DNA of 64,000 nt from Dyella sp. S184 (lineage in GTDB: Bacteria; Pseudomonadota; Gammaproteobacteria; Xanthomonadales; Rhodanobacteraceae): positions 361,731 through 425,730 of the forward strand of contig NZ_LMUE01000002.1 of assembly GCF_009766065.1 (NCBI RefSeq). The letters run 5' to 3'. The notes beneath the pieces were generated by a model. The model was not told the origin of the DNA and ran no database searches. It worked only from the letters and a program-made list of their open reading frames with translations. The position numbers and the translations under genes were made by a program. Shown in pieces: positions 49,040 to 60,007 of the stretch (its first letter is position 1; every line of letters starts with the position of its first letter).

Positions 49040-49251
49040 GGGTAAGCATGTCGATGGCCAAAGGTCTCGCCGGGCAGAACCGCCGCCTGACGGCGACGAC
49101 TGCTGTTCGCACCATGGCACCGGAAACAGCTGGCGACCAAGTATGTTGATGCGAACGCCTCTGGGGACGAGGCAGGCTACTCCCCAATGACAACGCGTCG
49201 ATGCTAACGGCAGCAACGGTGCGATACAAGCTGATGCTGGCGAACCGTGAC

Positions 49252-56959: not shown

Positions 56960-57595
56960 TCAACCTTTGACCGGCAACAACCCGCGCTCGCTCGCCATCC
57001 GGTACAGATCCAGTTCCGAACCCGCACCCAGCTTGCCCATCAGGCTGGCGCGATGGATATAGACGGTCTTCTGACCAATCCCCAGCTCGGCCGCCACCTG
57101 CTTGGGGGCGCGACCACCGGCCAGCAGCAGGAACACCTCGCGTTCGCGCGTGGTCAGCCGATTGATCGGATCCAGCGCTGCGTTCGGCCGTTCGGCCCGG
57201 CGCTGGCGCAAGTCCGAGCTGAGAAAGCACTCCCCATGCATCACCGCGCGCAGGCCAGCTACCAGCTCTTCCGGCGCCACGCCCTTGGTGACGTAACCAC
57301 TGGCACCACGGCGGAGTGCCTCTGATACATACGGCTCGCCGTCATGCATGCTCAACACCACGATGCGCGTCTCTGCCGACACGCTGAGCAGATGTTCGAT
57401 CAATGGCAATCCACTGCCATCAGGCAGGGACAGATCCAGTGCCACCAGGTCGGGGTGCCACTGACCAACAGCCTCCACCGCATCATCGGCGTTGCGGCAT
57501 TCAGCCACCACATCGAGATCAGGCTCCATTTCGATCAGCCGCTTGAAACCTTCACGAACGATGGCGTGGTCATCGACCAGAACAATGCTGTACAT
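56960..57595 (-). CDS. NarL/UhpA-family response regulator
   Basis: 211 residues: receiver domain with DD at 8-9, phosphoacceptor Asp54 (VALDLSLPDG) and the Lys switch in GYVTKGV, then a LuxR-type helix-turn-helix (LTTREREVFLLLAGGRAPKQ and AAELGIGQKTVYIHRASLM). The overall pattern is closest to UhpA. ATG 57595 is used, not the open frame from 57646. It is divergent from a MASE1 histidine kinase 81 bp away, which is its likely partner. An unannotated structured RNA lies after the kinase. Confidence 0.92.
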   Translation of the reverse strand: MYSIVLVDDHAIVREGFKRLIEMEPDLDVVAECRNADDAVEAVGQWHPDLVALDLSLPDGSGLPLIEHLLSVSAETRIVVLSMHDGEPYVSEALRRGASGYVTKGVAPEELVAGLRAVMHGECFLSSDLRQRRAERPNAALDPINRLTTREREVFLLLAGGRAPKQVAAELGIGQKTVYIHRASLMGKLGAGSELDLYRMASERGLLPVKG

Positions 57596-57676: not shown

Positions 57677-59275
57677 ATGCGCCTGAAACCACTCCGCTTG
57701 CCCGACTCCGGCCCATTGCTTGGCGCAGGCTACCTGTTGCTATGGCTGCTGCTGTGGCCGACCGTGCAACCTTACTGGATGCTGCCGTACGGCCTGCGCT
57801 TTGGCGCCCTGCTGCTCACCCCGGTGCGCTACTGGGGCTGGCTGCTCGGTGCGGAACTGGTCGCCACGGCCGGCATCAGCGTGGCCCATGGTCTGCCTCT
57901 GGGCTGGATCGGCTTCGCCTTCGATGAACTTCCCGAGCCGCTGGTAATGGCTGCCGGCCTGTGGCTGCTGCGGCGATTCAACCTCCACCCCAGTTTGCAG
58001 AGCCCGCAGGAAGTGACCCGGCTGATGCTTTCGGTGGTGCTGATCGTGACCGCTACCACCGCCGTGGACGCAGCCTTGCTGGCACTCATCCAGACACCCC
58101 ACTCACCCGATCTTATGCTGGGTGTTCTCGGCGAGGATTTGCTCAGCCATTACCTGGGCATCCTGCTGATCGTGCCGCTGATGATCATGCTGCTGCGCAG
58201 CCGGATCGACCACCGAGCCATGGCCAGCCTGCTGATGGATGGGCTGCTGGTAATGCTGCCATCCATGGCGATCCTACTGGTGTTGTCCGAGCAGGCAGCG
58301 CCGCAACCGCAATTCGCCCGCGTGCTGTCGCTGGCACCTGTGTTGTTCTTCGCATTTCGCCATGGCTGGCGCGGCGCCAGCCTGGCGATGATCATCTCCA
58401 GCCTGGGCATGACCCTGGTCGACCAGCACCTGGGGCATGCCCCATCTTCCGCGGCCGCTTATCTGTTCCTGGCCGTCGCCGGTACCGGCGCACTCATGCT
58501 GGGCTCGGCCACCGATGCTCTGCGCCGCAGCAGCGAACGGGTAGCCGAACAGAACATCTATCTGGGTGCAGTCAATCGCCGGCTGGATCAGCTTGCCCAT
58601 CAATTGCGCAGCGCCGCCCGCGGCAATCTGCAGGCGGACGAAAACCAGCGCCGGCACCTCGCCGCCGAACTGCACGACGAGCTGGGCCAGAACATCACCG
58701 CGATCCAGACCCATGTGAAGCTGGCCCAGACACGCCTGCATCAGGCCGGCATGGAAGACATCAGCGCCTCGATCAATACCATCCTGGCCCACATGCGGCG
58801 CGCCCTGCACCGTCTGTTGGACGACCTGCGCCCTGCCGTGCTGGACGAGTTCGGACTGTTGCGCGCGCTCGATGAAGGTCCGATACGGGATCTGCTGAAT
58901 ACCGCAGGAATGATCTATCACACCGAATTGCACGGCGATCCGCGCCTGCTCGATGACGACACTCGCACCGCGATCTACCGGCTGGCCCAGGAAAGCGCGA
59001 CCAACGCCGTCAAGCACGCACAGGCCAGCGAATTCTGGTTACGCCTGCGGATCGGCGAGCGCCAGGGCATCGCACTCGCGCTGCTGGACCTGCGTGACAA
59101 CGGTGCCGGCCTGCCCAGCCGATTGCCCCGCGGTGGCCGCGGTCTGCAAGGCATGCGCGACCGGGTCACCTCACTGGGCGGCCAGTTTCGCCTGCGCGCC
59201 GATCATGCCGGGGTCCATCTCCGTATCTTGTTGCGCAGCAACAATAATCCTGCGGAAATGGGGCGTCAGAACTAG
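57677..59275 (+). CDS. MASE1-domain sensor histidine kinase (UhpB-like)
   Basis: 532 residues. Eight or so membrane helices (1-285) form a MASE1 sensor (PTVQPYWMLPYGLRFGALLL, then WGWLLGAELVATAG). A HisKA_3 dimerisation domain follows with phospho-acceptor His333 in AAELHDELGQN, then a HATPase_c domain (YRLAQESATNAVKHA; LRDNGAGLP; GGRGLQGMRDRV). This is the UhpB/NarX class, which phosphorylates LuxR-type regulators. ATG 57677 is used; ATG 57662 is an alternative. The signal is unknown. Confidence 0.92.
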   Translation: MRLKPLRLPDSGPLLGAGYLLLWLLLWPTVQPYWMLPYGLRFGALLLTPVRYWGWLLGAELVATAGISVAHGLPLGWIGFAFDELPEPLVMAAGLWLLRRFNLHPSLQSPQEVTRLMLSVVLIVTATTAVDAALLALIQTPHSPDLMLGVLGEDLLSHYLGILLIVPLMIMLLRSRIDHRAMASLLMDGLLVMLPSMAILLVLSEQAAPQPQFARVLSLAPVLFFAFRHGWRGASLAMIISSLGMTLVDQHLGHAPSSAAAYLFLAVAGTGALMLGSATDALRRSSERVAEQNIYLGAVNRRLDQLAHQLRSAARGNLQADENQRRHLAAELHDELGQNITAIQTHVKLAQTRLHQAGMEDISASINTILAHMRRALHRLLDDLRPAVLDEFGLLRALDEGPIRDLLNTAGMIYHTELHGDPRLLDDDTRTAIYRLAQESATNAVKHAQASEFWLRLRIGERQGIALALLDLRDNGAGLPSRLPRGGRGLQGMRDRVTSLGGQFRLRADHAGVHLRILLRSNNNPAEMGRQN

Positions 59276-59280
59276 GAATT

Positions 59281-59316
59281 TTTCCGATACCGGAAACGTA
59301 AAGACATCGTTATGAT
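59281..59316 (+). promoter_or_regulatory. palindrome and -10-like box before the candidate RNA
   Basis: TTTCCG (59281-59286) and CGGAAA (59291-59296) are inverted arms around ATAC. TATGAT (59311-59316) resembles a -10, without a good -35. This would fit an activated promoter with the palindrome at about -30 to -45, placing the start near 59322. Confidence 0.4.
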
Positions 59317-59321
59317 TAAGT

Positions 59322-59521
59322 CATCGATGTGGGGGAGCCACCATCGCAAGATGGTGGATTCAGAGTTGCCGTGGGGACGGCGGCTCTGGAACAACGGCAG
59401 GATGCCGTTTCGCCGCTACCTGGCGACAATGCTGGCCATCGCGAGTATCTCGTCGATAGCTAATTGCGATCAGGTAGCGGAGCAGCCGCAAGCGGACAGG
59501 AGTCCTCCTTGCGGCTTTTTT
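59322..59521 (+). ncRNA. candidate CsrA/RsmA-sequestering small RNA
   Basis: About 200 nt between the kinase and fur, made almost wholly of hairpins: CCACCATC/GATGGTGG with a GCAA loop (59338-59357); CAGAGTTGCCGT/ACGGCGGCTCTG with a GGGG loop (59361-59388); AACGGCA/TGCCGTT with loop GGA (59393-59409); a long stem CCGCTACCTG/CAGGTAGCGG (59413-59422 with 59471-59480); and a terminator AGCCGCAAG/CTTGCGGCT (59484-59516) whose apex is GGAC-AGGA-GTCC, followed by six T. At least eight GGA motifs occur, several in loops, as in RsmY/RsmZ/CsrB. A reading frame across it is broken into by the terminator and is rejected. Confidence 0.65.
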
Positions 59522-59584
59522 ATGCGCGAAATTCGCCGTCCGGCTTGAGGGCGGCGGTCAACTTATCCGCAAACGACCCGCAGC

Positions 59585-60007
59585 TCAGGATTTACGGGCC
59601 CGCTGTTTCGGCCGCACATACAGCACCAGGCTGTGATCCTCGATCACATACCCATGCTTGGCGGCTATCTCGTGCTGCAGCCGCTCGATCTCCTCGCTGA
59701 CGAACTCAATCACTTTCCCGCTGTCCACATCAATCATGTGGTCATGATGTTTGCCACGGTCGAGTTCGTAGACAGCCTGACCACCCTCGAAATTATGCTT
59801 GACGATGATACCGGCTGCCTCGAACTGAGTCAGCACGCGGTATACCGTCGCCAAGCCAATGTCTTCCTGGTGGGCGAGCAAGTTCTTGTAGACATCTTCG
59901 GCGGTGAGGTGCTGTACCCCTTCCTCGTCAAAGATCTGCAGGATGCGCATGCGCGGGTGAGTCACCTTCAGGCCAACCCTGCGCAGTTCTTTGGTTTCCT
60001 GTTCCAT
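59585..60007 (-). CDS. fur: ferric uptake regulator Fur
   Basis: 140 residues: winged helix (VTHPRMRILQIFDEEGVQHLTAEDVY broken here at GVQ) and the metal-binding dimerisation domain with KHHDHMIDVDSGKVIEF and AAKHGYVIEDHSLVLYV. It represses iron-uptake genes when Fe2+ is bound. The two Cys of the E. coli structural zinc site are absent (VDSGK instead of LDCGK, and no C-terminal Cys pair), as in Pseudomonas Fur. It is divergent from bamE, 76 bp apart, a conserved arrangement. Confidence 0.96.
   Translation of the reverse strand: MEQETKELRRVGLKVTHPRMRILQIFDEEGVQHLTAEDVYKNLLAHQEDIGLATVYRVLTQFEAAGIIVKHNFEGGQAVYELDRGKHHDHMIDVDSGKVIEFVSEEIERLQHEIAAKHGYVIEDHSLVLYVRPKQRARKS

Follow-up and report, generated by a model that had tools for sequence, protein, structure and literature searches.

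A conserved structured RNA with GGA sites beside a UhpB-like kinase in Rhodanobacteraceae: a probable CsrA sponge with a proposed two-component switch

The DNA that we analyzed is a 64,000-nt stretch of the Dyella sp. S184 genome (the window), in which genes for a sensor kinase, a response regulator and Fur accompany what we describe here as a small RNA gene (Table 1). The best match of the kinase was to UhpB (183.3 bits against a curated cut-off of 408), and the regulator was nearest to MctR, NarL, and UhpA (143.6 bits against the UhpA cut-off of 258), with GacA ranking fifth. An earlier note on this DNA had called the pair UhpAB-like; that label stands for the nearest matches, which are UhpB- and NarL-like, but not for UhpAB membership by curated score, as both proteins fall below their cut-offs, and the target that we propose for this pair is the neighboring RNA gene.

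Table 1. Features of the locus, in window positions
Feature	Position	Strand	Remarks
NarL/LuxR-type response regulator, divergent from kinase	56960..57595	-	start codon picked by eye
Sensor kinase MASE1 - HisKA_3 - HATPase_c, nearest UhpB	57677..59275	+	start codon picked by eye
Palindrome TAGGAA-N3-TTCC(G)ATA, proposed regulator binding site	59273..59289	+	strict form in 103/124 loci
Promoter spacer GTRAA-N4-TCG	59298..59309	+	nearly invariant columns in alignment A1
-10-like element TATGAT (TAnnaT in relatives)	59311..59316	+	TTA and final T invariant in A1
Small RNA gene, ~199 nt	59323..59521	+	covarying stems, BLASTN copies; 5' end predicted, ~±5 nt
GGA site 1, GGGGGA, unpaired in single-sequence fold	59331..59336	+	GGA in 121/124 loci
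Hairpin 1, GNRA-type loop (GCAA here)	59338..59357	+	6/8 pairs changed on both sides
Hairpin 2, 12 bp, invariant CGUGGGGACG, GGGG loop, GGA site 2	59361..59388	+	10/14 helix pairs changed on both sides
Hairpin 3, 7 bp, tip (C)AGGAU(G), GGA site 3	59393..59409	+	4/7 pairs changed on both sides
Hairpin 4, long, variable, with internal loops	59413..59480	+	14/15 outer pairs changed on both sides; 63.5% of cells paired
Hairpin 5, intrinsic terminator, AGGA apex (GGA site 4), then T6	59484..59521	+	93.4% of cells paired
fur, convergent neighbor, locus boundary, outside the proposed mechanism	59585..60007	-	PF01475, 9.4e-43

The computed fold of positions 59300-59530 (+) had an energy of -116.7 kcal/mol, compared with -80.7 ± 5.1 kcal/mol for 200 dinucleotide shuffles (z = -7.1), and none of the 200 shuffles reached it. 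This fold contained the five hairpins that the earlier note had claimed, the last being a terminator (stem 59484-59516, T6 at 59516-59521); the description of all five as perfect or nearly so was too generous to the fourth, which has internal loops and whose tip in many relatives reads GCGAG-CAAY-UCGC. The three places at which GGA motifs had been noted (hairpin 2, 59393-59409, and the terminator apex) were all located in the computed fold, with the A of GGGGA in hairpin 2 sitting in the closing pair. A consensus terminator scan did not include 59484-59516 among its calls, probably owing to a bulge in the stem. Since the minus strand of the locus has a comparably stable fold (z = -8.2), the RNA was assigned to the plus strand from its T-run and promoter rather than from fold energy. 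The computed fold also has a 5' stem (59304-59330), in which 0 of 11 pairs (helices 1 and 2) changed on both sides; because it showed no double-sided changes and overlaps the -10-like element, we rejected this stem as part of the RNA and interpret it as promoter DNA. Across relatives, hairpin 1 (59338-59357) mostly had a GNRA-like loop (GCAA, GUGA, GAGA), hinting at a tertiary contact.

Compensatory changes in the stems were evident in alignment A1, which comprised 69 representatives under 88% identity and was scored against the structure of the window copy (82 pairs). Changes on both sides were seen in 51 of the 82 pairs, compared with 40.3 in shuffles, and in 514 alignment cells, compared with 226.5 ± 13.4 in shuffles and 133-209 with slid partners; relatedness by itself can beat shuffles, which the slid-partner control addresses, and that control favors a structure drawn from one of the aligned sequences. 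Hairpins 1 to 3 were paired in 90-93% of A1 cells; hairpin 4 varies in length and aligned poorly. The earlier note had named a lack of stem conservation, a lack of conservation of the loop GGAs discussed below, and a conserved protein-coding pattern as grounds for refuting its reading, and none of these three was seen. We regard it as nearly certain that 59323-59521 (+) is an RNA gene.

In BlastN searches, 42 of the 45 genus genomes and 105 of the 197 sampled family genomes had a copy of the RNA stretch, the latter spread over 16 of 26 genera (own genome counted in each). Among the three misses in the genus, G027 has recN adjoining fur with 149 bases between them and lacks the kinase orthologue, while G030 (79% complete) and G041 (690 contigs) were also without a fur match. 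A covariance model of the promoter and the 5' half of the RNA (R1) was run against 398 sampled genomes of the order and matched 97, which represent 16 of the 98 genera and all lie inside the family; this search, with stricter filters and nine candidates scored per genome, possibly missed distant relatives. R1 added genera g7 and g13 to the BlastN set and, with filters off at the fur locus, g25 (30.6 and 28.3 bits, at the right place). An exact 17-mer scan gave 113 stretches, of which 80 were listed; 62 of these 80 scored above 100 bits, and the other 18 (below 20 bits or unmatched) look like chance and were discarded. The listed records above 100 bits included Rhodanobacter, Dyella, Luteibacter, Frateuria, Fulvimonas, and Pinirhizobacter, together with a few MAGs carrying other labels, e.g., Thiobacillaceae. 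The 124 loci to which the counts below refer are all 42 genus hits (own copy included) and 82 of 88 further family hits, those outside the set being G072, G095, G122, G134, G212, and G218. In genus g2 (L171, L172) the kinase, fur, and palindrome are in place, and R1 scored only 12.0 and 8.8 bits there; we did not count g2 as having a homologue, its 17.8-bit hit being on the other strand inside the kinase gene. The g2 stretch holds a hairpin GCAC-AAGGAC-GUGC, which has an ANGGAN-type loop.

Four GGA sites (59334, 59375, 59400, and 59499) are kept in 121, 124, 119, and 124 of the 124 loci, respectively, and three of the four are in hairpin loops. Conservation of the other GGAs at 59292, 59356, 59388, and 59479 was lower (21, 33, 11, and 90 loci), while the GGA at 59494, kept in 122 loci, lies in a paired stem. 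At least three GGAs were in hairpin loops in 67 of the 69 representatives, compared with a mean of 0.73 in shuffles, 10 of 345 of which reached three. RNAalifold on A1 placed part of the G-run at the 5' end in a pairing with the bases that follow hairpin 3, and GGA site 1 may therefore be accessible just some of the time. The genome has one csrA gene, and of the 197 family genomes 185 yielded csrA, among them 164 of the 166 more complete ones. The encoded protein is identical in 49 of 55 residues (counted by hand on the alignment) to the solved carbon storage regulator 1y00, which we take to be the E. coli protein. It has both L4 and R44, which PMC7652899 names as CsrA residues for RNA binding. 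The same paper gives CAGGA(U/A/C)G as the CsrB repeat; this motif or CAAGGA(U/A/C)G occurred somewhere in the predicted transcript in 118 of 124 loci. It further describes the SELEX-derived CsrA site as RUACARGGAUGU, the preferred hexaloop as ANGGAN, and high-affinity hairpins as having mostly six-nt loops with at most four contiguous pairs (PMC7652899), whereas the present RNA has loops of 3-5 nt and a stem of 12 pairs, and the A of its GGGGA takes part in a pair. With GGA sites kept in 119-124 of 124 loci and enriched in hairpin loops, covarying stems, and a CsrA that has the usual RNA-binding residues, the RNA by its architecture appears to belong to the CsrA sponge class, outside every Rfam family tested, and it likely binds CsrA. 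The reading of this locus as a titrator resembling RsmY, RsmZ, and CsrB, put forward earlier, is supported by these sequence features.

Upstream of the RNA, the strict form of the palindrome lies at the same distance from the -10-like element in 102 of the 103 loci that have it, and its center is ~43 nt before the predicted start (~59323). NarL-type regulators can activate from a site near -43. The palindrome was seen by eye also in g7, g13, g25, and g2. In the 4.2-Mb genome of the strain itself the palindrome had one exact match and one further site with one mismatch; only the exact site is informative, since a reversed control pattern gave four matches at one mismatch or fewer. The TAG of the palindrome is the kinase stop codon in 53 of 120 loci (59273-59275 in the window; one of the 53 reads TAAGAA), and we rejected the stop codon as the cause of the palindrome because all 67 of the 67 loci in which the TAG does not serve as the stop retain TAGGAA. 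This left half is present in 119 of the 120 loci that have the kinase upstream and in none of the four without it, where it is changed in every case. The spacer element GTRAA-N4-TCG is possibly a second, degenerate GAA-N3-TTC regulator site. No sigma-70 -35 was recognized upstream of the RNA, and a consensus promoter scan called no promoter at the locus.

The kinase is directly upstream of the RNA in 120 of 124 loci and fur is downstream in 123. Most of the fetched loci end short of the regulator gene, and its linkage could thus be observed in only a small number of genomes: where the flank reached it, it lay beside the kinase in six genomes of five other genera and in G036 and G037. The four loci without the upstream kinase still keep the promoter and the RNA. 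In G020 and G021 the kinase orthologue is absent and the RNA is kept; in G036 and G037 the kinase and regulator are beside recN on another contig, and no second copy of the RNA was found near the displaced kinase. L053, L054, and L055 keep the RNA and fur without the kinase upstream, and in two of these the kinase and regulator are beside recN on a different contig. A rearrangement may have split the locus in such relatives; three of the four kinase-less loci look alike by eye, which implies few independent events. When 20 family genomes were searched for the kinase, six from g2, g7, g11, g13, and g25 were positive (E <1e-139), and 13 from g5, g9, g15, g17, g24, and g26 gave weak matches, mostly to the kinase domain (best 1.7e-25). 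G080 had a 42% kinase match elsewhere in its genome, and neither the regulator nor the palindrome nor the RNA was found alongside. The RNA was undetected in all 14 tested genomes of g5, g9, g15, g17, g24, and g26 (12 in the order-wide R1 search, G080 and G084 by BlastN and by R1 with filters off), while tested members of g7, g11, g13, and g25 had both kinase and RNA, suggesting that the two largely come and go together in the family. The link between the kinase/regulator pair and the RNA, which the earlier note had offered as an inference, gains support from the adjacency in 120 of 124 loci, the palindrome at fixed distance, and this co-occurrence, and we think it likely that the pair controls the RNA.

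The proposed arrangement resembles GacS/GacA (BarA/UvrY) in being a two-component input to a CsrA sponge, and the RNA could instead be a CsrA-sequestering RNA under a separate GacA-like regulator, with the adjacent pair merely a neighbor. The genome does have a candidate 27 kb away (G000:C14:448174-448806), which at 221 bits is below the 280-bit cut-off for UvrY/SirA/GacA and is a better GacA-like gene than the adjacent regulator (127.9 bits). Moreover, UvrY activates csrB and csrC in E. coli and Salmonella according to PMC4682653, which gives the UvrY box as TGTAAGN6CTTACA. We searched for this box between 400 nt before and 40 nt after the aligned start, and 120 of 124 loci had no match with fewer than 4 mismatches out of 12; the best match (at most 4/12 mismatches) fell in 19 loci on the GTRAA element, which might conceivably act as a weak second GacA/UvrY site. 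The conserved palindrome differs in sequence from the UvrY box, and all 20 genomes tested had a GacA-like match whether or not they carried the RNA, whereas kinase and RNA mostly co-occur. We therefore consider control by the GacA-like regulator unlikely and favor control by the linked pair.

A second alternative concerns the partner of the RNA, which could be an Hfq-type RNA that pairs with mRNAs or could use the invariant CGUGGGGACG tip of hairpin 2 to bind some protein different from CsrA. Ten consecutive bases of this hairpin are invariant in all 124 loci, an invariance that exceeds what a GGA site would need. In addition, some distant relatives are without GGAs at the core positions. In g7 hairpin 3 and the terminator are without GGA and just one GGA is in a hairpin loop, and in g25 the aligned core sites lose GGA and others appear; the g13 terminator has GAAC/GUUC in its stem in place of GGAC/GUCC and keeps a GGA loop. 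Eight distant copies that we folded had 5 to 8 GGAs each, not always in place (two of the eight are those of g2, unproven homologues). Against an Hfq-type or other partner, the conserved unpaired stretches are the G-rich GGA sites resembling CsrA targets, and four spaced GGAs suit a sponge, making such a partner improbable, slightly more so than GacA control, and leaving CsrA as the preferred one.

RsmU (sRX061) of Xanthomonas campestris also has four GGA motifs and binds RsmA, and it is described in PMC7694677 as a 117-nt RNA processed from the comEA 3' UTR and reported in Xanthomonas only. Changing all four of its GGAs did not abolish RsmA binding or the overexpression effects (PMC7694677); therefore GGAs alone prove little about CsrA binding. 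The RNA described here is likewise directly downstream of a gene on the same strand and could arise from the kinase mRNA by processing of its 3' UTR, as RsmU does from comEA mRNA (PMC7694677). A comEA origin does not fit the locus, which has the kinase upstream in 120 of 124 cases and fur downstream in 123 (RsmU was compared by description). In contrast to RsmU, the RNA has promoter elements of its own, with the -10-like element and upstream palindrome conserved at fixed spacing, and it adjoins fur. Because the four kinase-less loci keep promoter and RNA, though with the palindrome altered, we read it as a gene in its own right and not just a piece of a 3' UTR, and we judge processing from the kinase mRNA very improbable. 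That the locus is a short protein gene (the 78-residue frame 59312-59548, or one from the ATG at 59327) is scarcely credible and was rejected in keeping with the earlier claim of no coding frame, for although 122 of 124 loci carry the ATG at 59327 and 53 of 124 have its frame open for at least 60 codons (15% of shuffles, 525/3450, are open for at least 58), 103 of 124 loci differ in length from the window copy across 59331-59410 by something other than a multiple of three, the ATG at 59312 occurs in one locus of 124 (the window itself), the seven peptides compared share about ten first residues and then diverge, and the RNA stems covary.

Our preferred reading is that the RNA probably sequesters CsrA under the control of a two-component pair that is linked and dedicated to it. 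The conserved structure, GGA sites, promoter elements, and kinase linkage are computed here, and from them we infer that the RNA is transcribed and binds CsrA, that the regulator binds the palindrome, and which way control runs, as follows. The UhpB-like kinase would sense a signal and phosphorylate the NarL-type regulator, which would bind TAGGAA-N3-TTCC ~43 nt before the start and activate a promoter with a -10 and no recognizable -35. The ~200-nt RNA would be transcribed independently, from its own promoter, and its four GGA sites (GGGGGA and three hairpin tips) would offer room for about two CsrA dimers; sequestration of CsrA would free CsrA-repressed mRNAs. Whether the locus goes further and is a self-contained Rhodanobacteraceae cassette, in which the RNA is essentially the one DNA target of the regulator and the pair acts via CsrA alone, independent of GacA, we regard as an evenly balanced question. 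In many bacteria CsrA controls motility, biofilm, and carbon use, and the Rhodanobacteraceae are soil and plant-associated bacteria; if true, the arrangement would be a self-contained route from an outside signal to changed behavior, with the kinase, regulator, DNA box, and RNA linked so that the chain from signal to CsrA is testable at one locus.

Like RsmX/RsmY/RsmZ and CsrB/CsrC, the RNA has a terminator, GGA in hairpin loops, CsrA in the same genome, and proposed control by a NarL-family regulator; unlike them, it has four core GGA sites, no Rfam match, and no conserved UvrY/GacA box, and it adjoins a UhpB-like kinase. The Pf1 Csr RNA of Pseudoalteromonas is similarly narrow in range, with hits within one genus, and differs in having ~21 GGA motifs and a putative GacA site (PMC9927453). 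The locus would be an example of a CsrA sponge controlled by a two-component pair different from GacSA, and it is this dedicated, linked switch that appears to be new here. Among the open-license literature matches listed, we found nothing describing this RNA and no Rhodanobacteraceae RNA controlling CsrA, and the names of Xanthomonas and its kin that we sought are not mentioned in PMC5568370. The RNA is a candidate for a new Rfam family: as its earlier description as unannotated implied, no Rfam family matched the RNA locus at gathering score, and at E ≤10 the region 59200-59640 gave just SECIS_4 (E 4.2) and DAOA-AS1_2 (E 9.3), both weak and unrelated. No covariance-model match was found at the RNA locus to the Rfam entries CsrB, CsrC, RsmX, RsmY, and PrrB/RsmZ, which we take to be the family names for these RNAs. 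The sole Rfam gathering match in the window was a Manganese (yybP-ykoY) riboswitch at 49044-49197 (-), with 57.8 bits against a gathering score of 45.
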